Shown in pieces: positions 1-16,298 of a DNA stretch of 22,513 bases; the first letter of the stretch is position 1, and the number at the start of each line of letters is the position of its first letter. The translations under genes were made by a program, and so were the position numbers. Location: the IMG/VR virus record IMGVR_UViG_3300021478_000290, positions 1-22,513 of that record, one strand, 5' to 3'. The DNA is from a virus. Under the pieces are notes generated by a model, which saw only the letters and a program-made list of their open reading frames with translations, was not told the origin of the DNA and did no database searches.

Positions 1-67
1 GGCGGGGGGGGGCGGGGCGGGGGGCGGGGGGGGGGCGGGGGGCGGTGGGGGGGGGGGGGGGGGGGGG
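1..67. repeat. Poly-G low-complexity contig end
   Basis: Bases 1-67 are almost entirely G, with a few scattered C and one T. This is unlike the rest of the window, which is GC-rich but not homopolymeric. The G tract cuts into the lipoprotein gene that starts at 202 and would translate as a proline run. Dark-cycle poly-G from two-colour Illumina chemistry or a failed contig end is the simplest reading; a true G-rich tract is less likely. Nothing should be annotated from these bases. Confidence 0.8.
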
Positions 68-202
68 AGCCGCGTCCGGTGCCGGGGTGGCGTCGGGGCA
101 TGCGTCGCCCGCGGCCTTGACCTCGGTGCACGGGACGGGGGTGGGTTGCGGAGTACAGCCGAGCACCGCGACGGTGACGGCGAGGGCGAAGAGGGTCTTC
201 AT
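68..202 (-). CDS. Small putative lipoprotein, 3' end lost in poly-G
   Basis: This gene is too short and broken for simple ORF calling. Read from the ATG at 202 it begins MKTLFALAVTVAVLGC, a classic lipoprotein signal: a Lys at position 2, a hydrophobic stretch, and the lipobox VLGC with the lipidated Cys at residue 16. After it comes a Pro/Thr-rich linker with two further Cys. The frame then runs into the G tract, so the C-terminus is unknown. An AAGGAAAGGA Shine-Dalgarno-like stretch lies just after the TAA of the upstream peptidase gene, 20 bases away, so the two are probably co-transcribed. In a phage lysis region a small lipoprotein could be an outer-membrane spanin subunit; that is inference from position and signal only. 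Confidence 0.6.
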
Positions 203-222
203 GGGGTGGCCGGATCCTTTCC

Positions 223-1179
223 TTACGCCTGCACGGGTTCGGGGATGGGTGCGGAAGCATCGCCCGCGACCGGGGCGACCTTCATCACGTAGACGCACGA
301 CCATCCGATGTTCGGGTCGGCAGCGCTCGGGGTGTAGAAGGCGGGGCCGCCCTCGAAGTAGCCGCCCGCGCCCCACCCGGTGCCCCACGAGTTGACGCAG
401 TCGAGGATCGTGTTGCCCGCCGCGTCCTCGTGGTAGCCGTCGCAGTAGAGATCGTGACCGCCGCCGTTCGGGTCGGAGGTGTTCGGCGCGCCGACGGGGC
501 CGCTCGCCGGGTTCCAGCTCTCGAAGGCGCCGTCGACGAACACGGCGAAGTTGACGGCGTAGCCCGCCACGATCGCCGCACGCACGAGCTGAATGAAGTC
601 CGACTCGGTCGGGTCGATACCGTACTGCCCGTTCATCTCGTAGCACTGCGCCGCTTCGAGCGTGGCGAGGTCGGGCTCGACGTTGATCGTGTTCGGCGTG
701 CAGTCGGAGAGCCGACCGTCCGGGGCTCGCGCGCCCATGGCGCAGATCCCGAACTGATTGATCGCCGCCTGTACGCTCTGCGGGTTCGCGCCGCTGTCGG
801 TGAGCGCGCCGGCCGACGGTGAGCCGCGGTCGATGCAGCGGCCGAGCTTGTAGATTTCGTCCGGGCTCGGGATCGGGATCGTCGTCGACGCGCTCTGATT
901 GCACGTCGTGTAAATCGCGCCCGCGTTCGCGTGGCCCGTGCACGAGCCGACGGGACCCTGATCGAGAACCGGGCAACCCTTCGAGCGGAGCGAGCAGCTC
1001 GACGGCGTCGCTGCGTCGACCTTGACCCCGAGGCGCGCGAGGAAGGCGCGGAAGTGGACGAGGTTGCGCGCGCTAACGCTGCGCTGCGCGCCCAGCTCGC
1101 CCTTGTGTCCGTAGCCGTTGGGGCCGCCGTACTTTCGGCCGGAAGTCGCGGGAGCGGGGGCGGGGGTCGGGTCGGTCAT
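223..1179 (-). CDS. Papain-like (peptidase C1A) cysteine protease
   Basis: This 318-aa protein carries a full papain-type catalytic set. Gln75 (oxyanion hole) and Cys80 lie in DQGPVGSC, His242 in GGGHDLYC, and Asn263 in VNSWGTGWG, which is the usual order and nearly the usual spacing for family C1A. The first ~65 residues are Pro/Ala-rich without a clear pro-domain or signal peptide. Many further Cys (for example 62, 69, 93, 115, 146, 160, 179, 246, 261, 295) suggest disulphides. The start is set at 1179 because the upstream extension is Arg-rich and because a promoter-like element ends 7 bases before this ATG. No Shine-Dalgarno is visible. The family is secure; the role is not. It could attack host proteins, process virion proteins, or serve in lysis. 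The C-terminus is a short Pro/Ala tail. Confidence 0.85.
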   Translation of the reverse strand: MTDPTPAPAPATSGRKYGGPNGYGHKGELGAQRSVSARNLVHFRAFLARLGVKVDAATPSSCSLRSKGCPVLDQGPVGSCTGHANAGAIYTTCNQSASTTIPIPSPDEIYKLGRCIDRGSPSAGALTDSGANPQSVQAAINQFGICAMGARAPDGRLSDCTPNTINVEPDLATLEAAQCYEMNGQYGIDPTESDFIQLVRAAIVAGYAVNFAVFVDGAFESWNPASGPVGAPNTSDPNGGGHDLYCDGYHEDAAGNTILDCVNSWGTGWGAGGYFEGGPAFYTPSAADPNIGWSCVYVMKVAPVAGDASAPIPEPVQA

Positions 1180-1180
1180 G

Positions 1181-1199
1181 CCGGGGAGACTATCCCCGG
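1181..1199. repeat. Perfect 7-bp inverted repeat around the -10 box
   Basis: CCGGGGA and TCCCCGG form perfect arms of 7 bp around a 5-base centre, directly before the ATG of the cysteine protease. The centre falls inside the TAGTCT box of the predicted promoter. As DNA it could be an operator. As RNA it would hardly exist if transcription starts at the ATG. There is no T tract, so an intrinsic terminator is unlikely. Confidence 0.5.
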
Positions 1200-1216
1200 T
1201 CGGAGCCGTTGAACAG
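1187..1216 (-). promoter_or_regulatory. Predicted leaderless promoter of the C1A peptidase
   Basis: On the minus strand CTGTTC (1216-1211) is followed by 18 bases, then TAGTCT (1192-1187), then 7 bases, then ATG. TAnnnT about 7 bases before a start codon is the known layout of leaderless promoters in GC-rich bacteria. The same layout recurs at four other starts in this window. No Shine-Dalgarno lies before this ATG. Confidence 0.55.
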
Positions 1217-1217
1217 A

Positions 1218-1532
1218 TCAGACTTTCGTGGCCGCGTAGACTGACGTGACGACATTCGCGATGGGCATGACGAGGTTCGCGAAAGCCGCGCAGGCCCCCA
1301 AGATCGCGAGCACTTCGTCCCACATGCTCTTTGTGATGGGGACGGCCGCGTCCTTGTACGCGACGATCAGCGCCGCGCGCTCATCGTCCGAGCACGCGAG
1401 GAAGCCCGCGAGGTCTTCGCCCGAGAGCGGAACGACTTCGAGGATCGCGGCCATGGCGTCTTCGCGCGACATGGGCGCGCGCACGGGCGAGGTCGGCGTG
1501 TCGGTGTCGATCCTTCCGTCGGGGTAGCTCAT
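1218..1532 (-). CDS. Hypothetical 104-aa protein with hydrophobic C-terminal half
   Basis: I do not recognise this family. The N-terminal 20 residues are polar (Asp, Thr, Pro). Residues ~22-60 look helical and acidic. Residues ~74-101 are a hydrophobic Ala/Val/Ile stretch with one Cys that could be a membrane helix. The start at 1532 overlaps the TGA of the upstream lipoprotein by 4 bases (ATGA), which fits translational coupling and excludes the Arg-rich upstream extension. It sits between a lipoprotein and a peptidase in the accessory block, so a membrane-linked role in lysis or exclusion is possible, but nothing in the sequence proves it. Confidence 0.65.
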   Translation of the reverse strand: MSYPDGRIDTDTPTSPVRAPMSREDAMAAILEVVPLSGEDLAGFLACSDDERAALIVAYKDAAVPITKSMWDEVLAILGACAAFANLVMPIANVVTSVYAATKV

Positions 1533-1771
1533 GGCGCGCACGCAATGCCCGCGTCTGCGGTCCCGGCTTCGCCGAGGTTTCGACGCAAGACGCCCGCGAC
1601 TGCGCAGTAGGCGCCGCGGTCGAGCGCTGCGCCGGGCGTGCCCGCTTCCTGATGCGAGTAGCCCATCGCGGTCAGCTTCGCGGCATCGTTCAGGCCCGCG
1701 AGGTCGGCCGCCGAGAGTCCGCCGCACGCGACGAGCGCGCCGAGGGCGAGAATGAGGATCTTTCGCTTCAT
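1529..1771 (-). CDS. Small putative lipoprotein (80 aa)
   Basis: The protein starts MKRKILILALGALVAC: three basic residues in the first four, a hydrophobic core and the lipobox LVAC with Cys16, so signal-peptidase II processing is expected. The mature part is ~64 residues with Cys56 and Cys78, rich in Ala and Gly, with no domain I recognise. A TATCCT box ends 7 bases before the ATG, with TTGACC 15 bases further upstream, so it may be read from its own leaderless promoter. The next gene is coupled by an ATGA overlap. An outer-membrane spanin-like role is possible from size and context only. Confidence 0.7.
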   Translation of the reverse strand: MKRKILILALGALVACGGLSAADLAGLNDAAKLTAMGYSHQEAGTPGAALDRGAYCAVAGVLRRNLGEAGTADAGIACAP

Positions 1772-1778
1772 GGGCCAG

Positions 1779-1805
1779 AGGATAGCGCTAGAGCCGTCCG
1801 GTCAA
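1779..1805 (-). promoter_or_regulatory. Possible leaderless promoter of the 80-aa lipoprotein
   Basis: TTGACC (1805-1800), 15 bases, TATCCT (1784-1779), then 7 bases to the ATG at 1771. The box and its distance to the start match the other five sites, but the spacer is 15 rather than 18, so this is the weakest of the set. Confidence 0.4.
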
Positions 1806-1932
1806 AAGGAGGATCACGACGACGAGAAGGATCAGCCCCCGCGGGCGACCATCCGGGCAGACCGAACCGCCCATGACCGATCGCGCCGCCGAAAAGACAG
1901 ACGAGTAGGACGACGACGAGGATCGTCAGCAT
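1788..1932 (-). pseudogene. DUF3309-like small membrane protein, frame broken at a G run
   Basis: From the ATG at 1932 the frame gives a hydrophobic helix (MLTILVVVLLVCLFGGAIGH), then FGLPGWSPAG. After a run of five G on the minus strand (1840-1836) it turns Arg/Pro-rich and runs on into the next gene. Removing one G instead gives AGLILLVVVILLLTGRL followed by TAG at 1788. The result is a 47-aa protein with two hydrophobic ends around a Gly/Pro/Trp turn, the layout of DUF3309 proteins. I take the corrected frame as the ancestral one. The ATG overlaps the upstream TGA by one base (TGATG). Either the base count in the run is wrong or the gene is genuinely frameshifted. Confidence 0.6.
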
Positions 1933-2105
1933 CACTTTAGGTGTCCGAGAATCGTTGTACTCTGCGTGGCTAGGTACGCGACCGTCCAGAAAAGGCCGAC
2001 GGCGATCGCGATCTTGCCGACCTCTTTGGTCTCGGGCGTCTTGCATGCGTAGTACATGAACAGACCGATGCCGAAGACGAGGAGCGGGATGAGGATGATC
2101 AGCAT
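1932..2105 (-). CDS. 57-aa two-helix membrane protein
   Basis: This short gene starts at the ATG at 2105: MLIILIPLLVFGIGLFMYYA, then a polar turn (CKTPETKEVGK), then a second hydrophobic segment (IAIAVGLFWTVAYLA) and a short polar tail ending HLK. Two membrane helices with a short loop are likely. Third codon positions are GC-rich and the TGA overlaps the ATG of the DUF3309-like gene, which supports a real gene. A promoter-like element ends 6 bases before the ATG. Small two-helix proteins in phage lysis regions may be holins or antiholins; there is no family match that I can name. Confidence 0.6.
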   Translation of the reverse strand: MLIILIPLLVFGIGLFMYYACKTPETKEVGKIAIAVGLFWTVAYLATQSTTILGHLK

Positions 2106-2111
2106 CGGACG

Positions 2112-2141
2112 AAGGTAATCACTCGACCGAGGCTTGAACAG
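2112..2141 (-). promoter_or_regulatory. Predicted leaderless promoter of the 57-aa membrane protein
   Basis: CTGTTC (2141-2136), 18 bases, TACCTT (2117-2112), then 6 bases to ATG. The bases after CTGTTC closely resemble those of the site before 2451 (CTGTTCAAGCCTCG against CTGTTCAAGTCTCG), which suggests a shared binding site or copied promoter. Confidence 0.5.
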
Positions 2142-2142
2142 C

Positions 2143-2451
2143 TCAAGCGCTCGCGCTCTTCTTCTCTTGCGCGCGCGCGAACGCTCGCGCTTCCACGGAG
2201 TCGAGCGCGCACCATACGAGCTGTCGGGAGACGATCGGGGACGACTTGCCGAGCGCCTCGGCGAGCTTGTCGCCGCCGTCGGCGAGCACCTCGGTCGGTT
2301 CCTTCATCAGCTTCTTGTGCTTGCGGCAGACCTTGAGTCCGACGATGCACCGCACGGTCGCGCCGTTGCCGTTCGTGAAGAGCACGATCGGGTGATAGGC
2401 CGCGGTGTCGCCGCACTCCTTCATCATGCAGACGGGGAACGTCTTCGCCAT
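2143..2451 (-). CDS. Small Cys/His protein, possibly zinc-binding (102 aa)
   Basis: Cys8, Cys13, His20, Cys35, Cys42 and His45 cluster in the first half (a C-x4-C pair and a C-x6-C-x2-H group), which could bind one zinc ion in a treble-clef or ribbon-like fold. The second half is helical and charged (KLMKEPTEVLADGGDKLAEA, then a C-terminal Ala/Lys helix). No exact family is recognised. No Shine-Dalgarno precedes the ATG, but a CTGTTC-18-TACCGT element ends 8 bases before it. Zinc-binding proteins of this size in phages often act on DNA or on host regulators; that is only a possibility here. Confidence 0.7.
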   Translation of the reverse strand: MAKTFPVCMMKECGDTAAYHPIVLFTNGNGATVRCIVGLKVCRKHKKLMKEPTEVLADGGDKLAEALGKSSPIVSRQLVWCALDSVEARAFARAQEKKSASA

Positions 2452-2459
2452 CGAGGATC

Positions 2460-2489
2460 ACGGTAGCGCCGAGGTCGAGACTTGAACAG
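2460..2489 (-). promoter_or_regulatory. Predicted leaderless promoter of the Cys/His protein
   Basis: CTGTTC (2489-2484), 18 bases, TACCGT (2465-2460), then 8 bases to the ATG at 2451. The element lies inside the tail end of the preceding reading frame and overlaps its TGA. Confidence 0.45.
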
Positions 2490-2651
2490 TCGCGCCGAAG
2501 CCGACGCCGTCGTCCGCGTTCGAGATGACGCACGCGGGCCGCAAGCCGACGTGAAGCGAGCGCCCGGAAAAGACACGCCCCCCGAACCATGCCGGGGCTG
2601 TCGGCGGTTCGAGGGGCGAGGGGGCGAAGTAGCCCGCGAGACCGTTCGAGG

Positions 2652-3311
2652 TCAGGCCGCGAAGCGTCTCGGGGGGAGGAGCGCCCAGCGCGGGAACAAA
2701 GGGACGACGACCATCGACGTCTTGCGCGCCGGGGGCTTGTAGACCGAGCCGGGCGGGGGCTGCGTTCCGGTCGCCGCTTGGTTCTGCATGAAGGCCGAGA
2801 TCACGGTCTCGATGTCGCTCTCGGCGACGTTGGCGAGAGCGCACACGGCTTTGACGTCGTTCGCGACTTGAGCCACGGGCGTCCCGGGCGGGATCGCTGC
2901 GCTCGCGAGCGCGAACGCCATGCAAGCGGTCTGCGCGTCGGTGAAGATCGTGTTCAGCGTGTTGATCTCGGCGGGCGTGCACGCGGCGCTCGGGGCCGCG
3001 GCGCAAGCGACGAACAGGATCGCGATACTGACGGTCGCGTTCATGTGCTGATGCACTGTCACGCCCACGGCGGTCCCGGTGAGCGAGGTCAGCCCGGCGA
3101 CGAGCGCGGCGAACCATGCGGCTTCGTTGACGGTCGACGCCGTCGAGATGCTCGCGACGAATGCGGCGAGGAAGGTGCCGATCAGGGTCAGGTAGGGGAG
3201 CCATGCCTTCGGGAGCGTCTTCACGCCGAAGAGGGATCCGGTATTGACCGCCTGCGAGATGTAGCCGGCGAGCACGCTCAGAAGCGCGATGATCATGGTT
3301 GTCGGTGTCAT
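2652..3311 (-). CDS. Holin-like membrane protein fused in frame to a lipoprotein-like segment
   Basis: Residues 1-88 look like a phage holin: hydrophobic stretches at ~5-20, 38-56 and 65-86 with short polar turns, ending VHQH. The frame then continues through Met90 into NATVSIAILFVAC, which resembles a lipoprotein signal with candidate lipid sites Cys103 or Cys111. A helical Ala-rich region follows (to ~180) and then a Pro-rich end. The two halves could be one protein, or the second could be made from the internal ATG at 3044, where the bases form an ATGA motif. As read, the protein stops after 219 residues, but the last ~10 look out of frame (see the extension down to 2458). The start has no Shine-Dalgarno and carries a promoter-like element. 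An inner-membrane lysis role is inferred from topology and neighbours. Confidence 0.6.
   Translation of the reverse strand: MTPTTMIIALLSVLAGYISQAVNTGSLFGVKTLPKAWLPYLTLIGTFLAAFVASISTASTVNEAAWFAALVAGLTSLTGTAVGVTVHQHMNATVSIAILFVACAAAPSAACTPAEINTLNTIFTDAQTACMAFALASAAIPPGTPVAQVANDVKAVCALANVAESDIETVISAFMQNQAATGTQPPPGSVYKPPARKTSMVVVPLFPRWALLPPRRFAA
2697..2703 (-). other. Possible -1 slippery heptamer
   Basis: On the minus strand the heptamer reads C CCT TTG in the frame of the holin-like gene, which matches the X XXY YYZ rule (CCC, TTT). It lies 12 codons before the zero-frame TGA and is followed within 5 bases by a short GCGC-TGG-GCGC hairpin. A weak stem and a nearby six-C run make an indel an equally good explanation. 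Confidence 0.3.
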
Positions 3312-3313
3312 GG

Positions 3314-3329
3314 GCGGAAGGCTATCCGC
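3314..3329. repeat. Inverted repeat flanking the -10 box of the holin-like gene
   Basis: GCGGA and TCCGC are perfect 5-bp arms whose 6-base centre is exactly the TAGCCT box of the predicted promoter. The arrangement repeats that found before the C1A peptidase, where the arms are 7 bp. An operator is possible. Confidence 0.4.
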
Positions 3330-3348
3330 GCTTGGACACCACTGTCAA
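3319..3348 (-). promoter_or_regulatory. Predicted leaderless promoter of the holin-like gene
   Basis: A perfect TTGACA (3348-3343) is followed by 18 bases, TAGCCT (3324-3319) and 7 bases to the ATG at 3311. TTGACA overlaps the stop codon of the XhlA-like gene. This is the best match to a housekeeping -35 box in the set. Confidence 0.6.
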
Positions 3349-3674
3349 TGCGCGTGCGCGAGGAGCCACCCGAGGAACGCCGAGCCGCTCATGAAGATGA
3401 GGCTCACGAAGGTCGCGACGACGTAGCGGACCCACTTGTCGCCGCTCTCGTCGCGCTCCTTGAGCTTCTTCTTCAGGTCGTCGACGTAGACGTCCTTCGT
3501 GTTCTCGGTCGCGTCTTCGAGCCGCTCGACGACCTCGACGACGTGGTTCAGGTCCGCGCGAAGCTGGACGGCTTCGATCTTGAGCCGGTCGACGTCGACG
3601 TCGAGCCGCTGATCGATCTGCCGTTCGAGAGCGAGCGCGAGCCGCTCTAGCGCCTGTTCGCCGCGCGGAGTCAT
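3345..3674 (-). CDS. XhlA-like coiled-coil protein with C-terminal membrane anchor
   Basis: This 109-aa protein has a long charged heptad-like helix at residues ~5-75 (ERLALALERQI, then VVEVVERLEDATENTKDVYV) followed by one hydrophobic segment at ~84-106 (YVVATFVSLIFMSGSAFLGW). A coiled coil followed by a C-terminal membrane helix is the layout of haemolysin XhlA and similar holin-accessory proteins. The start at 3674 overlaps the fibre gene stop by one base (TGATG), and the upstream extension in this frame is Arg-rich shadow. It lies directly before the holin-like gene, which fits a lysis role. Sequence similarity to XhlA itself is not proven here; the call rests on layout and position. Confidence 0.65.
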   Translation of the reverse strand: MTPRGEQALERLALALERQIDQRLDVDVDRLKIEAVQLRADLNHVVEVVERLEDATENTKDVYVDDLKKKLKERDESGDKWVRYVVATFVSLIFMSGSAFLGWLLAHAH

Positions 3675-5173
3675 CAGGGACGGTAGACGACGACGTGACC
3701 GTCGAGCGGGTTGATCAAGAGGTTCTGCGACGCGTTGCCGGCATTGTAGCCGTAGTGGATCGCGTTCGAGCCGGCGACCGCACTGAAGATCGCACGGACG
3801 TATCCGTTCGTCTGCGCGAGCGGTGCCGCACGCACGTCGGACGTCCACTGCGGGACAACAGGGCTCCCGTTTTGCGTGAAATTGATCGTGAAGAAAGTCC
3901 CCGCCGTCGAGAACGCGTAGTCGAACATCATCTCGACGGCGATCTTGTCGGTCGTGAGCAGACCCGCGATGGTCGTCATCGGTCCGCCCGGGGCGACGTG
4001 AAACGCCGTGTCGCCGGGCACGCCCGAGAACTGCCACGCGCCGCCCCCGGCCGTCGGGTCGTAGAAGGCACTGACGATCGCCCAATGCGTGTCGAGAAGC
4101 TTGACCTTGCCGAATGAATCGAGCTGCGGCAGTCCGCCCGGAATTTCGAGCGCGCCGCGGTACGAGATGTTCCACCGTCCGAACGCGGGAGTGTCGGCGG
4201 GAAGGATCACGGTAAGCCCGTCGTCGGTCGAGTTGTCGCCCGAGTTCCAGAAATAAAGCGCGTACTGTTGATTATTCGGCGTCGAGAGGTTCACGTTGAC
4301 GACCGAGTTCGCGAGACGGTTCGGGGCGGTGATCGCGCGGAGCGCCGTCAGGTTCACGACGGTCTTCACCGTGTCCGCGCCGACGGTCATGATCGTGTCG
4401 ATGCCGCCTTGCAGGGCGTCGAGCTGCGACGAGACCGAGCCCGACGAGAGCGAGAAGCGCGTCCCGGGCGAGGCGCCGTTCGTGAGGGTCGCCGCGGAGA
4501 TCGTGTTCAACTGCGCGAGCATCGCCGTGATCGCTTGGCCGAGCGTGCCGGCGCTGAGCGAGAAGGGCGAGCCCGTGATGTCGAACGTGACCTGGAAGCG
4601 TCCGGTCTGCCCGAACTTCGTCCCGGTCTGAAGGATGTCCGAGTTTTGAAACGTCGTCTGCCCGAACGCGCGATGAAGGTCAGCGACGAGAAGCCCGGGG
4701 TTGATCAGCCCGACGCGCACCGCGGTCCCGATCGGCGCCTCGGCGCCTTGGAGCACTTGGTACTCGAACGATTCAGAGTTGACGTAGAAGACCGTCGCGC
4801 CGTTACCGTCGATGACGGGATCGGACAGGACGCGCTCGAAGAGGATGAAGATCGAGATCCACTTCTCGTTACCCGCGCCCGCGACCGCCGTAGTGACGTG
4901 ACTCGAATCCTGCGAGCAGTCGAGCCCGGGGTTGTTCCCCGTCCCGGTCGTGAAGATGCGCTGACCGAGCTGATCGTAGGCGTAGAGCGGGCCGCCCACG
5001 ACGACGGTGAGGTCGGCGCTCGGGGTGTCTTGCGTGACGGTGCCGCCTTGCGCGATGCCGATCAAATTCTGATCGCTCATGAGAAGCTGCATCGAGGACT
5101 GCACGGCGCCGAAGGCGTCGTTCATCTGCTCCTCGGTGACGGCTTGCTTGAAGTACCAGTCGTAGATCAGCAT
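3674..5173 (-). CDS. Phage tail fibre-like structural protein (499 aa)
   Basis: The N-terminus (YDWYFKQAVTEEQMNDAF, then a VVGGPLYAYDQLGQRIF block at ~57-74) resembles the attachment domains found at the start of fibre proteins in large contractile phages. Residues ~200-290 are Ser/Thr/Ala-rich with long helical stretches (SQLDALQGGIDTIMTVGADT), as in trimeric fibre shafts. The C-terminal ~200 residues are beta-rich and aromatic (FWNSGDNSTDD, HWAIVSAFYDPTAGGGAWQF), as in receptor-binding tips. The start follows an AGGGAAG Shine-Dalgarno 9-10 bases upstream, 15 bases after the gpI-like gene. Position next to gpI matches tail fibre genes in P2-like order. Confidence 0.7.
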   Translation of the reverse strand: MLIYDWYFKQAVTEEQMNDAFGAVQSSMQLLMSDQNLIGIAQGGTVTQDTPSADLTVVVGGPLYAYDQLGQRIFTTGTGNNPGLDCSQDSSHVTTAVAGAGNEKWISIFILFERVLSDPVIDGNGATVFYVNSESFEYQVLQGAEAPIGTAVRVGLINPGLLVADLHRAFGQTTFQNSDILQTGTKFGQTGRFQVTFDITGSPFSLSAGTLGQAITAMLAQLNTISAATLTNGASPGTRFSLSSGSVSSQLDALQGGIDTIMTVGADTVKTVVNLTALRAITAPNRLANSVVNVNLSTPNNQQYALYFWNSGDNSTDDGLTVILPADTPAFGRWNISYRGALEIPGGLPQLDSFGKVKLLDTHWAIVSAFYDPTAGGGAWQFSGVPGDTAFHVAPGGPMTTIAGLLTTDKIAVEMMFDYAFSTAGTFFTINFTQNGSPVVPQWTSDVRAAPLAQTNGYVRAIFSAVAGSNAIHYGYNAGNASQNLLINPLDGHVVVYRP

Positions 5174-7684: not shown

Positions 7685-8701
7685 CTACCCGCACTGGTAC
7701 GGCGTGTTCGACGGCCACGGGACCAGGATCCGAAAATCGTCGTTCGTCAAAATGTTGAGATGGTCTCCTTTGGCGTTCGGATCGATCTGCACGACGACGC
7801 CGCCCCCGGTGTTGCCTTGCATCAGCATGAAGAGAGACGAGTAACCCTTCGTCGACGGTCCGGGCTGCGCTGCCGAGCTAGGTTGCAGAGCGTAGAACGG
7901 AGTCACGACCGCCATCTTGTTCGAGTTGCCGTCGCTGCCCGCGATGCTGAAAGGGGGATAGCCGGAACTGAAATTCATCCCCGTCAGATCCATGCTCACG
8001 AAGTTGCTCGGCGCGAGCCCGCCCACGAACCCTTTCGGGTAGGAGTTCGACGTCATCAGGTTTGAGCCGAAGTTCCCCGGCTGGACGAAGATGACACACG
8101 GATCAGGATCGCCCGCTTGCGTCGTCCCTTGCTGCAAGACGTCGAGGACCCACACGAGACTGTTGCTCATGTTCTGACCGAAGACGGTCACTTGATAGAT
8201 GATGAACGAGTAGCCGAGCGGACCCTGATCGAACAGAATGTGTTGCTGGAATTGGTAGTCTGTCCACTGCGCCCATGTGTTGAATGTCGGCGCCGCGTCC
8301 GTCCCGCCGCCGTACACGATCACTTCATCGGTCGCGCTCGGCACTTGCGTTGCGCTCGGGCTCCCGCCAACGAAGCCCGTCGCCCCCGTCGGGTTCGGCG
8401 AATACTTCATTCGCATTTGGATCGACGAGTAGCTGCTACTGATCTGAAGAACGAACTCGCGCCGCTGCCCGTTGACGGGAGGAGACTGGACTCGAAACCA
8501 CGCGTCCGTGTTCCAAATGTTTCCCGCGACCGCGAAAGGAAAAGCGCACGTGAGCGCCGATCCATCCGTGCCGCTGTAGCCGAGCAGCCCATCGCCCGAG
8601 CCGAGGATCAACCATCCCGCCGCGGCGAACGCTTGGAAAATAGCGAAGATCGCCTGACCGTTCGTCATCCTTCTTTGATTGACGGCAGCGTAGAAGCTCA
8701 T
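7685..8701 (-). CDS. Tail fibre paralogue 3 (338 aa)
   Basis: This is the last of three tandem related genes. Shared marks are VNQR near residue 7, Gly-Trp at 29-30, AWFR (67-70) with REFVLQ (81-86), MKYSP (98-102), QVPSATDEV (119-127), LDVLQ followed by DPDPCVIF, GYSSLF near 290, and the ending ILVPWPSN. Most of the protein is predicted beta with many Gly/Ser/Asn and aromatics, as in virion surface proteins. TGA of the upstream paralogue overlaps a GAGG Shine-Dalgarno, so translation is coupled. The function is inferred from its place between baseplate and gpI-like genes. No catalytic motif is visible. Confidence 0.6.
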   Translation of the reverse strand: MSFYAAVNQRRMTNGQAIFAIFQAFAAAGWLILGSGDGLLGYSGTDGSALTCAFPFAVAGNIWNTDAWFRVQSPPVNGQRREFVLQISSSYSSIQMRMKYSPNPTGATGFVGGSPSATQVPSATDEVIVYGGGTDAAPTFNTWAQWTDYQFQQHILFDQGPLGYSFIIYQVTVFGQNMSNSLVWVLDVLQQGTTQAGDPDPCVIFVQPGNFGSNLMTSNSYPKGFVGGLAPSNFVSMDLTGMNFSSGYPPFSIAGSDGNSNKMAVVTPFYALQPSSAAQPGPSTKGYSSLFMLMQGNTGGGVVVQIDPNAKGDHLNILTNDDFRILVPWPSNTPYQCG

Positions 8702-8710
8702 GGTCGCACC

Positions 8711-9667
8711 TCAGTTCGCCGCGTCCACGCCCGCGGGCCAGGGCACGAGCAGACAGTTGTTCCATTCACCTTGCGCCATGTGATCCTTGGTTCCGGCCAC
8801 GGGAGGATTGCCTACGCTCGCAGTGTCGCCCGTATACATGAGCGTGTTCGACGTCGGAGTGAAGAGTGTACTGTAACCCTTGTACCCGTAGGTCGGGCTC
8901 CACCACATTCCGGGGAGGACGTCGAAGTAGCCGTTCCACTCGTTGTTCGCCATGATCTGACCGGCCGTCGTCCCGAAGTAGCTCGGCTTGTAAGGGCCGA
9001 GCTGAACCGGAAGAAAATTCGCCGACACGATCGACGTGAAGAAACAGTTCGCGTTCAGTCCGAGCCCGACGGTTTGAAAGTCGTGCGCGTTCGCTCCCGC
9101 GAAGTGGACGGTCGGATCGAGATCGCCCACGTCGGAATTGAGCACGTAGTCCATGCACCACGAACCGAACGCCGATCCCGACGTCGTCCCGAGGATCAAC
9201 GCTTGCGCCCAGAAAGCGTAATGAACCGACGCGTCGCCCATCCCCATGTGCAGGTTGTACGTTCCGTCCGACGTGAAGAGACCCGCGTAGGTTTGGGTCG
9301 CGCCCGTGATGTTTCCCCAAATCGCGACCTCGTCGGTCGCCGTGGGAACTTGGGTTGCAGTCGGCGCTCCACCCGTGAAGCGCGCGGCTGGGCTGTACTT
9401 GATCGCCCACTGCAAGTTCGTCGTCCCGCGCTGCACGATGAACTCGCGCACGCCACCCGGATCGCGAATGCGAAACCAAGCCATGTTATTCGCCAAGCCG
9501 TGCGCGCCCGTGCCGCCGCCCGTGATCTGATTGCCCGACGAGTTGTAGGTCGTCCCGTCGCTCGACGACTCGACGACCCACGCCGCGGCGATGAAGTTCG
9601 AGAGGATTAGATACATCGCAACGCCGCCCGTCGACGGCCGCTGATTGACGAGGAACGTGTAGCTCAT
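8711..9667 (-). CDS. Tail fibre paralogue 2 (318 aa)
   Basis: The middle member of the tandem trio. It carries VNQRPSTGG at 7-15, Trp30, NMAWFRIRDP (61-70) with REFIVQR (74-80), WAIKYSP (87-93), ATQVPTATDEV (104-114), MDYVLNSDVGDLDPTV, GYKGYSTLF near 270, and the ending LLVPWPAGV. It is about 20 residues shorter than paralogue 3, the difference lying in the loop at ~35-60. Codon use is like that of its neighbours. The gap to paralogue 1 has the TGA-overlapping GAGG site also seen before paralogue 3. Divergence between copies is high in the middle and low at the two ends, as expected when a shared scaffold carries different surface loops. Confidence 0.6.
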   Translation of the reverse strand: MSYTFLVNQRPSTGGVAMYLILSNFIAAAWVVESSSDGTTYNSSGNQITGGGTGAHGLANNMAWFRIRDPGGVREFIVQRGTTNLQWAIKYSPAARFTGGAPTATQVPTATDEVAIWGNITGATQTYAGLFTSDGTYNLHMGMGDASVHYAFWAQALILGTTSGSAFGSWCMDYVLNSDVGDLDPTVHFAGANAHDFQTVGLGLNANCFFTSIVSANFLPVQLGPYKPSYFGTTAGQIMANNEWNGYFDVLPGMWWSPTYGYKGYSTLFTPTSNTLMYTGDTASVGNPPVAGTKDHMAQGEWNNCLLVPWPAGVDAAN

Positions 9668-12245: not shown

Positions 12246-13859
12246 TCAAATTCCTACGTTCGTTAGGGTCCAGTATTGCGTAGGGTCGGCCTTGATGAAG
12301 CAAGGCGCTGTCCCGTTGTCGGTGAACGCGACGGCCGGTCCGCCGCTCGTGAGCGAGAGCTTGAACGAGTTCGCTGTAGCGCTGACGACGTAGTAGGTGA
12401 TCAGCGGGTTCAGACCGCTCGGGACGAGCCCAGCGTTGCCTTGCGGCGTGACGCCCGCGTAGATCGTGACCGCGTCGCCGTTCACGTGCGACGTTCCGAC
12501 GTCGTTGATCTTGCTCGTCGTGAAGTCGGGCGCGACGGTCTCGTCGGGGAAGTAGTCGAAGAAGTTCTCGTAGGGCTGCGTCGGGAACGATTGACCCGGG
12601 AAGAGCATCGTCGTCGTCGCGGGCATGACGGTGTGATAGGGGACGTTGTCCCATCCCGCCGAGAAGTTCTCGTAGGCGACCGAGCCACTGTCGAAGAGTG
12701 CAGTCGCCGCGGGGACCGCCGACCACGCGAGATAGAACGGGATCTGAGCGACGGGCCATCCCGCCTCGAAGCCGTCGTAGGCGATCCCGTGCGGCGGAAA
12801 CTCGACGGCACTGAAGAGCGCCTGAACGGCGCTGTCGAAGATGAAGATCGCCGTCTCGTCGCCGGGGTGCTGCGCGTCGACGCCGCCCGCGTAGTTGCCG
12901 GGCTCCCACCCGAGCGCGGCGAGCGACGTGCTCGAACCGTTCACGAAGATCGCGCAGCCCGAGCTTGGAATCGTGGGAGCGATCGTCCAGTCGATCGAGC
13001 CGTTGTTCGCGTCGGGCGCGACGCCGCCCGCGTTGCTGATCGTCATCGACCACTGACCCGGCCCCGTGTACGTGACCGACACAATCGGCGTCGTGACGTT
13101 GTTCCCCGGGCTCGACGCGCCCGTGAAAGCGACGGGGAGCCCGACGAAGCTGTCGTTCAAGTTCGGGAAGCCGTCGAGCGTGACGACGCTCCCGACTTTG
13201 CTGACGACCGCCGCAGTGATCCCGGTCGCGCCGCCCTCTTGAACCGTCGCGCCGCCCGTCTCGACGGTTCGGATGAAGACGTGGCCGAACGCGTCGTAGA
13301 AGGCGAATCCGGCCGCGGGCGAGCCCGCGTAGGCGGTTCCGATCGCGACGTTGATCGCGTGGACGACTTCAGTAGCGAGCGCGTGCGTGATGTCGACGAA
13401 CTGCCCCGTTGAGAAGACGCACGCGACGACCGTAGCTTCGCCGTCCGCGTCGGTGATCGTGAAGTTCAGCGTCGCGCCGTTGAAGAGCGCGAAGGGCGCG
13501 CGGAGCCCGTAGGGGTAGCCGTTGAAGGGGGGCGCGGCGCCGAAGTAGGGACCCGGACCGCTCATCGCGAGCCCGTGCGAATTGGGAAGCCGCCACCCGC
13601 GCTCGAAGCCGTCGTAGGGCGTGATCACGCCGCCCGAGGGCTCGGTTCCGAAGTCCATCGCCGCCGCGTTCGTCGGCACGATGAGCGAGTCGACGAAGTC
13701 GTCGACGCCCCATCCCCTCTCGAACCCCTCGAAGCGCGACTCGAAGAGCGGCGTCTCGAACGCCTCAAAGATGAAGGGGACCGAGACCGAGCGCGTCCAT
13801 AGCGCGGCATCGCCGGGGTTCGGCCCTTGCGTCTCGAAGGACAGGTTCGCGATCGTCAT
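12246..13859 (-). CDS. Baseplate-associated appendage protein with repeated GFExGW motifs (537 aa)
   Basis: The N-terminus (ANLSFETQGPNPGDAALWT) is the carbohydrate-binding-like opening seen in several phage tail proteins. A short aromatic motif recurs: FEAFETP (31-37), FEGFERGW (43-50), YDGFERGW (82-89), YDGFEAGW (361-368), YENFSAGW (397-404) and YENFFDYF (430-437). The C-terminal ~90 residues (YYVVSATANSFKLSLTSGG) match a repeat common in tail fibres. A beta-rich middle part (130-300) separates the two repeat groups. The gene overlaps baseplate J by 4 bases, so it is made together with the baseplate. It probably builds an adaptor or fibre; the exact role is unknown. Confidence 0.65.
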   Translation of the reverse strand: MTIANLSFETQGPNPGDAALWTRSVSVPFIFEAFETPLFESRFEGFERGWGVDDFVDSLIVPTNAAAMDFGTEPSGGVITPYDGFERGWRLPNSHGLAMSGPGPYFGAAPPFNGYPYGLRAPFALFNGATLNFTITDADGEATVVACVFSTGQFVDITHALATEVVHAINVAIGTAYAGSPAAGFAFYDAFGHVFIRTVETGGATVQEGGATGITAAVVSKVGSVVTLDGFPNLNDSFVGLPVAFTGASSPGNNVTTPIVSVTYTGPGQWSMTISNAGGVAPDANNGSIDWTIAPTIPSSGCAIFVNGSSTSLAALGWEPGNYAGGVDAQHPGDETAIFIFDSAVQALFSAVEFPPHGIAYDGFEAGWPVAQIPFYLAWSAVPAATALFDSGSVAYENFSAGWDNVPYHTVMPATTTMLFPGQSFPTQPYENFFDYFPDETVAPDFTTSKINDVGTSHVNGDAVTIYAGVTPQGNAGLVPSGLNPLITYYVVSATANSFKLSLTSGGPAVAFTDNGTAPCFIKADPTQYWTLTNVGI

Positions 13860-15391
13860 ACGGCAAGCCCGGTATCTCCGTCGATGAGCGTGACGGTTCC
13901 GAGTGCCGGAAACTGCTCGGGCGTGAGCGTCGGATCGCCGTGCGCGTTGTTCAAGAGGAAGTCGGTCGGGTTGCCGCCGATCTCACTCACGCCCGTCGTC
14001 TGCTCGCACGCGTCGATCAGTCCGTTGATCGAGATCCTCGGCGCTGGGTTGCCGTTCGTGTCGGTGAGGTTGGCGCCGAAGTCGACGTTCTTGTTCGGCG
14101 TGCCGTCGGCGTTCTGCACGGCGAAGAAAGCCGCGAGGGTCGCGCGGAGATTCGCGCCGACCTGCGCGCCCGTGAATCCCTTTTGCTTGTAGAAGCGCGC
14201 GAAGACATTCACCGAGAGGTAGCGCGCCGAGAAGGTGTTCACCTTGAAGGTGAGCGTCGAGGGATAGGTGACGGTGACCATCGTGAAGACGGCGTTCAAG
14301 AGAGCCACGCCCGCGACGCCGCCGCCGACGGGGACGATGTAGAGGTCGCCCGTGTTCTCGGCGACCGCGGGATCCTGATTCGAGGTCACCATGAGCGCGC
14401 GAGCTGCGCCGGGGACGCGGAGCGCGTTCGTCTCGAAGTCGTCGATCGACACGCTGCGAGTGTTCGAGCGCAGGCCCGCGGGAGCGGCAACCTGGATCTG
14501 AGCGACGGTCTGCGGATCGAGCCCGCCTTGCGCTTGCTGCGCGTTCGTCGCTGAAACCGCGACCGGGTTGCCGAGGCTGTCGGTGAACTGCCCCTGCATT
14601 CGGGAGATGGTCGTAGGCTCGACATTGCCCGCGCTGCCGCCGCCCGTGCGGTAGTCGACGGTGATCGCGCCGCTCGGGATCGAGCCGTTGATCCCGTCGC
14701 CCGTCATGATCGTCGCTTGCCCCGTCGCCGAGATCGAGACCGTGAAGTGTTTGTCCGTGGGGGTCGAGTCGAGAAAATTGACGACCTCGGTGTAGACGCC
14801 GTCCGCCGCGGTGAATGTGGTGATGGGGACGCCGTTGCTCGTGTCGAGGAACGGCACTTGCGAAAGGACGAAGGTTTGGTTCGGCAGTCCGTTCGAGGTG
14901 AAGGTGTCGGTCTGATCGGTCGAGTTCTCGACGAGCACCTTCACCGTCGGCGGGTTCAGACCCGCGGCGAAGAAGGCGTCGGCAAGAAGTTGAAACGCAA
15001 CCGTCCCGGTGATGTTCGCCGTCAGGATGACGGAGCCCTTCGGGATCGTCACGGTGCCGATCGGAGGGGACGCGAGCGTGAGCGTCTCTTCCGTCTGCGC
15101 GGCCTCGGCGCCTTGCACGGTGTAGCCGAGCATCTGCGCGAGCGCGATCACGTTCTGAAGCTGAACGGCCGTGACGAGCCGCGACTCGCGCGCTTGGTTG
15201 TCCTGGTAGTAGGTGAGGATGTCGCCCGTGAAGGCGAACAGCTCTAGGAGGATGTCGCCGAAGTTCGCGACGTTGAAATCCGTCCACGTCGGGAAGACCG
15301 ATCGGATGAGCGCTTGCAGCCGAAGGCGGATCGAGGCGAAGTCCTTGTCGGTGTAGTCGAGGCTCGCGGGAAGGATCGGCGCGTTGCTCAT
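13856..15391 (-). CDS. Baseplate J / gp47-like wedge protein
   Basis: This 511-aa protein has the standard opening of the baseplate J family: DYTDKDFASIRLRLQALIRS, then WTDFNVANFGDILLELFAF, TYYQDNQARES, and the helix with QNVIALAQMLGY. The middle (190-320) is beta-rich, and the end carries the usual Ala/Gln and beta parts (SIDDFETNALRVPGAARALM, then FYKQKGFTGAQVGANLRATL). In P2 the homologue is gpJ and in T4 the related protein is gp6, which forms the baseplate wedge ring. The start at 15391 overlaps gp25 by 4 bases; the 90-residue upstream extension is Arg-rich shadow. Its place after gp25 is the order conserved in almost all contractile systems. Confidence 0.92.
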   Translation of the reverse strand: MSNAPILPASLDYTDKDFASIRLRLQALIRSVFPTWTDFNVANFGDILLELFAFTGDILTYYQDNQARESRLVTAVQLQNVIALAQMLGYTVQGAEAAQTEETLTLASPPIGTVTIPKGSVILTANITGTVAFQLLADAFFAAGLNPPTVKVLVENSTDQTDTFTSNGLPNQTFVLSQVPFLDTSNGVPITTFTAADGVYTEVVNFLDSTPTDKHFTVSISATGQATIMTGDGINGSIPSGAITVDYRTGGGSAGNVEPTTISRMQGQFTDSLGNPVAVSATNAQQAQGGLDPQTVAQIQVAAPAGLRSNTRSVSIDDFETNALRVPGAARALMVTSNQDPAVAENTGDLYIVPVGGGVAGVALLNAVFTMVTVTYPSTLTFKVNTFSARYLSVNVFARFYKQKGFTGAQVGANLRATLAAFFAVQNADGTPNKNVDFGANLTDTNGNPAPRISINGLIDACEQTTGVSEIGGNPTDFLLNNAHGDPTLTPEQFPALGTVTLIDGDTGLAV

Positions 15392-15930
15392 GCTGCCGCC
15401 TGCATCGGGACGCCGACTCTTTGGGCCACGCCTTGGAAGATCACTTGATTGCCGGGGACGTTCTTCGAGATCACGTCGTAGATGAGGTCGATGTAGAGCG
15501 CGAGCTGAGACGGGAAGAAGGCCGAGGTCACGCGCAGGTTCGTCACGCGCGGCTCCCATCGCGCGAGCGCGTCGGTCGCGTAGTGACGCGATGCCTCGAT
15601 GAGCAGCGGCCCCTTCTTGTGCTTCAAGAGGTAGATGCGCGAGCCGAACGACGGACGCCACGCAAGCTCGCCTTGCATCACGCCGCTATCGTCCGCGGCG
15701 AAGGTGCCGAGGATCTCGCTCACGCACGACTTGATCACGTTCAGCCCATTGTCGTTCGCGAAGTCGTTTTTCTGATCGCGAATGAAAGGGTGGATGAGTC
15801 CCGAGCCGAGGAAGGCGGGGACCGTCGGGCTATAGATGTTCGACGAGATGAGCGCGATCGGGCTCGGCGGAAGCGGAGGGGGCGCCGCCCGGGGCGTGAG
15901 CTGATACGTGTAGCGGTGCGGGTTGCTCAT
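15388..15930 (-). CDS. gp25/gpW-like baseplate wedge protein
   Basis: Residues ~45-165 show the GPW/gp25 pattern: IHPFIRDQKNDFAND, VIKSCVSEILGTF, a WRPSFGSRIYLLKHKKG segment, ARWEPRVTNLRVTSAFF and a closing strand. This family caps the wedge at the edge of the central hub and helps start sheath polymerisation. Despite the old name lysozyme, gp25 has no proven muralytic activity. The protein is 180 aa, a little longer than usual (about 110-140), with a Pro-rich N-terminal extension (TPRAAPPPLPPSP). It overlaps both neighbours by 4 bases, so it is tightly coupled to baseplate J. Confidence 0.88.
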   Translation of the reverse strand: MSNPHRYTYQLTPRAAPPPLPPSPIALISSNIYSPTVPAFLGSGLIHPFIRDQKNDFANDNGLNVIKSCVSEILGTFAADDSGVMQGELAWRPSFGSRIYLLKHKKGPLLIEASRHYATDALARWEPRVTNLRVTSAFFPSQLALYIDLIYDVISKNVPGNQVIFQGVAQRVGVPMQAAA

Positions 15931-16259
15931 GGCGGGTTCTCGTTGCCCGACGTGTCGATCGCGTGGACGACGAGCTGCGGCGCAGCCGGCCACCCGCCCG
16001 CGCGATTCAAGACGAAGTGGTAGCCGCTGTTCGGGCCGTCGGTGACCGACGCGATCGACGATTGCGCATTGTAGAACGGCGTGAAGGCCGCGCCGTCCCA
16101 AGGCACTTCGACGAGGTTCGTCCCGGGGAAGTAGACGAGGACGAGGATGTCCGTGAAGGTGCCCGCCGCGTCGACGACGTCGAAGCTGATCGCCGTGTTT
16201 TGCCCGATGGGTCCCGCGCTCGGATCGGGGGTGAGGTTCTCGATGAGGGGACCCGGCAT
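15927..16259 (-). CDS. Small Ig-like beta-sandwich protein (110 aa)
   Basis: The sequence follows a single Ig/cadherin-like domain: PLIENLTPDPSAGPIGQNTA at the start, FDVVDAAGTFTDILVLVYF in the middle and the closing VVHAIDTSGNENPP, typical of the last strand of Ig-like domains in surface proteins. It has no signal peptide or membrane segment. A 42-base gap and a promoter-like element precede it, an exception in an otherwise overlapping operon. Its stop overlaps gp25. A decoration role on the spike or baseplate is likely, since free Ig-like domains are common on phage particles. Confidence 0.65.
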   Translation of the reverse strand: MPGPLIENLTPDPSAGPIGQNTAISFDVVDAAGTFTDILVLVYFPGTNLVEVPWDGAAFTPFYNAQSSIASVTDGPNSGYHFVLNRAGGWPAAPQLVVHAIDTSGNENPP

Positions 16260-16268
16260 AACGGCCCT

Positions 16269-16298
16269 AGCCTATCCGCATGCGAGGCGCTCGAACAG
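16269..16298 (-). promoter_or_regulatory. Predicted leaderless promoter before the Ig-like/gp25 genes
   Basis: CTGTTC (16298-16293), 18 bases, TAGGCT (16274-16269), then 9 bases to the ATG at 16259. It sits in one of the few real gaps of the structural operon and could start an internal transcript covering the Ig-like, gp25 and baseplate J genes. Confidence 0.5.

Follow-up and report, generated by a model that had tools for sequence, protein, structure and literature searches.

In Deinococcus, TANNNT sequences 6-7 bp before open reading frames are described as yielding leaderless mRNA (PMC12340547; this and the other papers named here are cited from parts of their text), and TANNNT before open reading frames has been found across bacteria, delta-proteobacteria included (PMC3160421). 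Phage transcripts are described as often leaderless in the paper on AR9 (PMC5312081). In T4 middle promoters, served by MotA with AsiA, the host -10 is retained and a phage box takes over from the -35 (PMC2988021), and the middle and late promoters of the Thermus phage P23-45 belong to the extended -10 class, which is spared when gp39 blocks -10/-35 promoters (PMC7403470). The start-associated sequences of cluster K mycobacteriophages are repeated and asymmetric, lie 3-7 bp before start codons and mostly share one orientation (PMC3203893). Here we describe a 22,513-base phage fragment, IMG/VR virus record IMGVR_UViG_3300021478_000290 (G000; the whole stretch is called the window below), in which CTGTTC, 18 bases of any kind and TANNNT together form an element that ends 6-9 nucleotides (nt) before start codons. 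We propose, with a probability of about 0.6, that these elements are a lineage-specific class of phage late promoters that would give leaderless mRNA and whose CTGTTC box would be read by a factor that the phage either makes or recruits.

The main genes of the window are on the minus strand, where the tape measure gene (20054-22450), a tail protein gene and the baseplate wedge gene (13856-15661) are followed by smaller genes toward position 1. The promoter-like elements of the window are these:

1187..1216, minus strand: predicted late promoter; CTGTTC (1211-1216), N18, TAGTCT (1187-1192), then 7 nt to the ATG of start 1179
2112..2141, minus strand: predicted late promoter; CTGTTC-18-TACCTT, 6 nt to the ATG of start 2105
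2460..2489, minus strand: predicted late promoter; CTGTTC-18-TACCGT, 8 nt to the ATG of start 2451
16269..16298, minus strand: predicted late promoter; CTGTTC-18-TAGGCT, 9 nt to the ATG of start 16259, heading the run with the baseplate wedge
3319..3348, minus strand: promoter-like; TTGACA-18-TAGCCT, 7 nt to the ATG of start 3311
1779..1805, minus strand: possible leaderless promoter without CTGTTC; TTGACC-15-TATCCT, 7 nt to the ATG of start 1771

A sequence-only reading had reported the boxes, spacings and distances to ATG at starts 1179, 2105, 2451, 16259 and 3311, together with TATCCT at 7 nt and a 15-base spacer at 1771 (where TTGACC takes the -35 place), and all of these are exact. A second record, G001 (IMGVR_UViG_3300050821_003950, 95,607 bases), overlaps the window over 19,903 bases with zero mismatches and ends at window base 2,611; joined, the two give a sequence of 98,217 bases, J, whose positions equal 98,218 minus the window position. 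Our own gene-calling script, not a published caller, called 124 genes in J, 112 of them on one strand. Window positions 1-70, at the contig end, consist almost wholly of G, which is probably an artefact of sequencing or assembly.

CTGTTC-N18-TANNNT matches four times in the window, each time on the minus strand, against a mean of 0.00 and a largest count of 0 in 100 dinucleotide shuffles, and nine times in J (98.2 kb), against a mean of 0.06 and a largest count of 1 in 200 codon-preserving shuffles. Spacing 18 is the only one that occurs in J, with 0 matches at each of the spacings 14-17 and 19-22, and when all hexamers were scanned at spacings 14-20 before TANNNT, CTGTTC at 18 ranked first (9 found, 0.10 expected). 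Five of the nine exact sites lie outside the window that supplied the pattern, and so amount to an independent test of it. All nine are on one strand, the coding strand, 6-9 nt before ATG (seven) or GTG (two). A tenth site, at J 74660, joins CTGTTC to the box TAGCCC 6 nt before an ATG, and a variant at J 32101, TTGTTC-N17-TAGAGT, lies 7 nt before the ATG of start 32137, which has the ribosome-site-like bases GAGGAG before it. CTGTTC is often followed by (A/G)A, and among the 12 intergenic copies of the hexamer on the J coding strand, 10 run into N18-TANNN[T/C] and a start codon and 2 do not. A de novo motif search under the zero-or-one-occurrence-per-sequence (ZOOPS) model mainly picked up codon periodicity and ribosome sites and contributed nothing.

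The placement of the -10 box also exceeds expectation across J. TANNNT lies 6-9 nt before 17 of 123 starts, where about 0.9 are expected, and 5-9 nt before 18 of 123, where 0.91 are expected (starts less than 60 bases from an end were excluded from these and from the early/late counts), which supports the earlier suggestion of promoter-like elements with TANNNT placed as leaderless mRNA would require. Strong pairing with the anti-Shine-Dalgarno (anti-SD) sequence, defined by a duplex energy of -5.5 kcal/mol or lower, a cut-off of our choosing, was found at one of 11 motif starts (the 10 CTGTTC starts and 3311) and at 60 of 111 other starts (p = 0.008; rank test, p = 0.013), and AGGAG is absent at all 10 CTGTTC sites. 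That these starts have no Shine-Dalgarno sequence was therefore nearly right: pairing falls short of the cut-off at 10 of the 11 and reaches -5.7 kcal/mol at start 1179. Start 94922 was moved to 94907 (window 3311) for the anti-SD, gap and early/late counts, and start 30977 to 31124 for the early/late counts.

At six of the 10 sites the box begins 1-4 nt after the previous stop codon and the whole gap is 37-42 nt long, while the other 99 junctions have a median gap of 9 nt; in the window the distance from stop codon to CTGTTC is 1 nt for the promoters at 1187-1216 and 2112-2141 and 3 nt for that at 16269-16298. Given these distances, the element at the six tight junctions seems to need little further upstream, unless coding DNA is used. 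At the remaining four sites the stop codon is 20, 52, 162 and 239 nt from the box. The position of the T in a TGN before the -10 is occupied by T at one of the 10 sites, by G at eight and by C at one, so that the sites do not have the extended -10 form.

The elements are confined to the part of J that carries the virion genes and the small window genes. Helicase, MT-A70, Toprim-like and PD-(D/E)XK nuclease genes occupy the first part of J (before 32 kb), and integrase, terminase, portal, capsid, tail and baseplate genes the second, along with the small genes of the window. With this 32-kb boundary, which is our own choice and was set after the sites were seen, the motif precedes 0 of 46 starts before it and 10 of 77 at or beyond it (p = 0.013), and TANNNT lies 5-9 nt before 1 of 46 and 19 of 77 starts (p = 0.0007); no element is present in the replication part of J. 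The idea that early genes are more often Shine-Dalgarno-led was not supported (a score of at least 5 in 9 of 46 early and 24 of 77 late starts). The sequence-only reading had placed the elements at small accessory or lysis genes apart from the structural operon, a division that does not hold: besides heading the baseplate-wedge run, the element precedes the gene adjoining a major-tail-protein homologue (J 33193/33531), the gene at J 49545 in a run that holds a capsid-protein homologue (capsid at 55925), a TIG-domain gene (J 70253) and a baseplate-hub homologue (J 74696; box TAGCCC). By the genes they precede, the elements look like a late-gene set, and the initial observation is real, more general than first reported and was interpreted partly correctly.

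Close relatives share the element. G401 (IMGVR_UViG_3300020122_000511, 18.5 kb), from another metagenome and with a 96% identical capsid protein, has it 7 and 6 nt before the orthologues of J 49545 and 59040; at these sites all 12 box bases agree and the spacing is kept, and the spacers are identical at 11 of 18 and 10 of 18 positions. G401 also retains the TAGAGT box at the orthologue of J 58536. The same 59040-type site is found in L162, which seems to be a phage of the G401 kind and hence is not independent. Across 40 capsid-protein loci of 4-21 kb each, the element precedes a start in three, at 96-100% identity (J, G401 and L162); of the other 37, at 73% identity or less, 36 have no match and L179 has one within a gene, with no called start near. 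Eight further virus records that encode a related baseplate wedge (G002-G009) were searched over their full length; six have no match, G006 has one, inside a gene, and the match in G003 is described below. A scan of the whole collection with the pattern returned four stretches, two being the known contig, one G401 and one G400 (43% GC), whose match was taken as chance, as it has no protein related to the phage. So far, then, the element 6-9 nt before starts appears to be a feature of one lineage.

From these observations we infer promoter activity, a leaderless 5' end, late timing and a reading factor. A host-type sigma-A -10 (TANNNT) beside the start codon would make the transcript begin at, or within a base or two of, ATG or GTG, and a -10 this near would yield leaderless mRNA. 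The constant CTGTTC, at its fixed 18-bp spacing, would take the place of the normal -35 and be read, where sigma region 4 would sit, by a factor that the phage makes or recruits later in infection; this reader would bring host RNA polymerase to the late genes together, in a manner comparable to MotA at T4 middle promoters. More tentatively, and short of an even chance in our estimate, the phage may have adopted the leaderless -10-adjacent starts of its host and made them a temporally switched late regulon by means of a 6-8-bp box and an unrelated regulator replacing the contacts of sigma region 4, a sigma appropriation that would have arisen in one lineage of a prophage family whose other lineages seem to be without it.

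Several observations weigh against the pattern itself or against this reading of the elements as a phage-specific late class. Nine of the 18 -10-adjacent starts of the phage lack CTGTTC. In the window, CTGTTC alone is found 14 times against a shuffle mean of 8.7 (4 of 100 shuffles reach 14), and the pattern with up to 2 mismatches 26 times against 19.8 (10 of 100 shuffles reach 26); TTGAC-N19-TANNNT is found once, a count reached by 6 of 100 shuffles, so that the site at 3311 is not significant taken singly, and a generic TTGACA/TATAAT scan of window positions 1-4000 gave no match. The single intergenic match in G003, a relative further removed, precedes a called start by 13 nt, outside the 6-9 nt rule, and is either chance or a remote trace. 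G011 (TerL 65%, portal 60%) has -10-adjacent starts (5 of 39, 0.15 expected) and no CTGTTC element; the element is likewise missing from a syntenic module in the metagenome-assembled genome (MAG) 'Deltaproteobacteria bacterium DP_38' (-10-adjacent starts 0 of 87, 0.7 expected) and from the prophage region of G047 (3 of 111, 1.0 expected), so CTGTTC is no general requirement of the family; starts within 60 bases of an end are again left out of these counts. 'Late' rests on gene content and not on timing. Family scans covering part of the 124 called genes, two of these scans listing the best 25 of 42 and the best 25 of 61 families, have no sigma factor, RNA polymerase or MotA-like family among the matches listed. 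Lastly, in 11 bacterial genomes CTGTTC-N18-TANNNT-N6-8-ATG matches 14 times and its reversed control 4 times, though a scramble reaches 10, and the comparison with host promoters is indirect, as the sampled bacteria may not be the host's group.

The G047 region (G047:C15:220001-320000, L134-L138) holds a prophage from this family, embedded in a bacterial contig of 416 kb, with 35 proteins related to J or G011 in a largely matching order; it may serve for locating attachment sites and naming the host.

The count of 14 against 4 in bacterial genomes is a point for the first interpretation of these sites, that they are plain host promoters at which the host primary sigma reads CTGTTC as a -35, late timing coming from elsewhere. 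The -10 is host-like, spacing 18 falls in the sigma-70 range, and start 3311 has TTGACA in the same frame, yet CTGTTC agrees with TTGACA at only 2 of 6 positions and a complete lack of spacing variation is unusual for sigma-70. Sampled bacterial DNA allows an indirect comparison. In it, -10-adjacent starts are frequent in G010, which carries a related phage element (10 of 168, about 0.8 expected), and in its relative G019 (34 of 186, about 0.9 expected; starts with a caller score under 20 were excluded): none of these 44 starts has CTGTTC and one has TTGAC. In the same 11 genomes TTGAC-TANNNT-N7-ATG matches 42 times against 6 for its reversed control, whereas the scrambled version CTTGTC gives 10 against 5, so that CTGTTC, at 14, is not clearly above its scramble. 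Without the ATG, the pattern matches 10 times in G010 against 22 for the control, and in 235 genomes of the phylum CTGTTCAA-N16-TANNNT-N6-8-ATG matches 2 times against 5. Tested in these ways, CTGTTC as a bacterial -35 is not favoured, and we regard plain host promoters as unlikely; the original assignment to primary sigma fits start 3311, with its TTGACA, and is not supported for the CTGTTC set. We conclude, by this indirect route, that leaderless -10 starts are a habit of the sampled bacterial group and that CTGTTC belongs to the phage. A match in G023, CTGTTCAAGTCTC...TAGGCT, was rejected, the contig having no phage-related proteins and no called gene at the predicted start. As to the host itself, the syntenic module in DP_38 and close TerL relatives in 10 of 377 genomes of its phylum suggest that phylum and nothing narrower, since the bacterial elements that were read lack these promoters.

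We consider it distinctly unlikely that a repressor or another regulator binds at CTGTTC, overlapping the -35, and so silences late genes in the lysogen. The phage does have an integrase, a relative resides in the bacterial contig of G047, and at start 3311 the -35 (TTGACA) overlaps an imperfect copy of the phage palindrome TATGACA-N4-TGTCATA (window 3332-3349; 4 mismatches in 18 positions, GACAGTGGTGTC in common), an overlap by which this promoter may be under control different from that of the CTGTTC set. CTGTTC itself, however, is short, is not palindromic and always stands equally far from the -10; a repressor would be expected to have its sites in the early and integrase regions, yet the full element does not occur there, and the palindromes of the phage differ from it in sequence and location.

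A phage-encoded sigma factor or RNA polymerase that reads both boxes would also agree with the fixed geometry and the dedicated box, and its gene could be missing from J, since the joined sequence may stop short of the genome ends. Against this, no Sigma70_r4 match above the cut-off was found in G000, G001 or G401, the one weak match (13.2 bits) being in a gene with HNH/helix-turn-helix (HTH)-like sequence; no such family is among the matches listed (best 25 of 42 families), and the -10 looks like the host's own. We regard this explanation as improbable. As to the preferred reading, a separate factor acting with host RNA polymerase, no MotA or AsiA family is among the matches listed for the part of the genes that was scanned, and unrelated proteins could serve.

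Chance or a coding artefact has next to no probability, for although the TTGACA site at 3311 is not significant singly and looser forms of the pattern show no enrichment in the window, the shuffles of window and J, the hexamer scan, the count of intergenic CTGTTC and the conservation in G401 already exclude it for the CTGTTC set.

The genes that follow the elements in the window are mostly small and without family matches:

223..1179, minus strand: 318-amino-acid (aa) protein that weakly resembles papain-family (C1) peptidases, with a score short of the Pfam cut-off; after the promoter at 1187-1216
1529..1771, minus strand: 80-aa protein, lipoprotein-like signal by our own reading of the sequence, no family match
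1932..2105, minus strand: 57-aa protein, hydrophobic stretch by our own reading, no family match; after the promoter at 2112-2141
2143..2451, minus strand: 102-aa protein, no family match; after the promoter at 2460-2489
2652..3311, minus strand: 219-aa protein, hydrophobic parts by our own reading, no family match; after 3319-3348
15927..16259, minus strand: 110-aa protein, no family match; first gene after the promoter at 16269-16298

The palindrome met at start 3311 recurs elsewhere. At L017:4150-6580 (G001 64.15-66.58 kb) four genes have TGGCAY-N6-TGCAA, a sigma-54-like GG-N10-GC arrangement, 12-59 nt before their starts, and the palindromes TATGACA-N4-TGTCATA and ACCAGGACCGATCG... about 80-246 nt upstream; for three of the four the predicted transcript start, by our own count, is 2-3 nt before the ATG, and Shine-Dalgarno-like bases are also present. 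The arrangement resembles a set of sigma-54 promoters and their enhancer sites within an accessory region of the phage, or else a repressor network. A 139-aa protein at L017:9558-9977, with a Fis-type HTH (PF02954, 22.5 bits, cut-off 22), a second copy of it recognised by eye and no AAA+ match, is a candidate reader of the palindromes. An amidoligase gene lies near two probable gamma-glutamyl-cyclotransferase genes (L017:4354-5334, 8300-8761 and 9063-9521; which two genes are the cyclotransferases is our own reading), and relatives of all three are grouped in the DP_38 element. One of 52 small proteins (in L014 or L015), probably that at L014:8671-8925 to judge from its sequence, matches the Thoeris anti-defence Tad2-like family PF11195 (1.9e-24).

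If the CTGTTC elements are late promoters of the kind proposed, they would provide a code by which the late genes of an uncultured phage group can be addressed, packed at six of ten sites into the 37-42-nt gaps, and would offer a sequence handle for finding both the phage regulator and the host. Because most of the relatives examined lack the element, it can also be asked how a phage gains a new late-promoter specificity and shifts structural genes to leaderless expression.

Among described systems, the -10-adjacent leaderless promoters of Deinococcus and other bacteria share with those of the phage a TANNNT box some 6-7 bp ahead of the start codon (PMC12340547, PMC3160421); they are general cellular promoters, whereas the phage adds a fixed upstream box on late genes. 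We recognised no description of a CTGTTC-18 element in the parts seen of the literature on leaderless late phage promoters, a search that left most subscription journals outside. In P23-45, host RNA polymerase uses middle and late promoters outside the standard -10/-35 class, as proposed here (PMC7403470), but those are extended -10 promoters, whereas the sites of this phage do not as a rule have TG before the -10 and carry a constant upstream box. The 13-bp core of the cluster K sequences, GGGATAGGAGCCC, resembles GGGATAGGCTCCCC at one site of this phage; the cluster K sequence has AGGAG in the ribosome-site position, which the 10 CTGTTC sites lack, and is described at non-structural genes, and the CTGTTC-18 element does not figure in the cited parts of the cluster K description (PMC3203893). 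Canonical sigma-70 promoters have a -35 near TTGACA, which is seen only at start 3311, the other 10 sites having CTGTTC. T4 uses its MotA box, which is centred at -30 and differs in sequence from CTGTTC, for middle genes, whereas the genes here are of late type and no MotA or AsiA relative is among the matches listed. What the T4 middle promoters and the phage elements share, as judged from sequence, is a host-type -10 with a dedicated phage box in the -35 place (PMC2988021), and T4 MotA with AsiA would on this analogy be the nearest working model for the CTGTTC elements.

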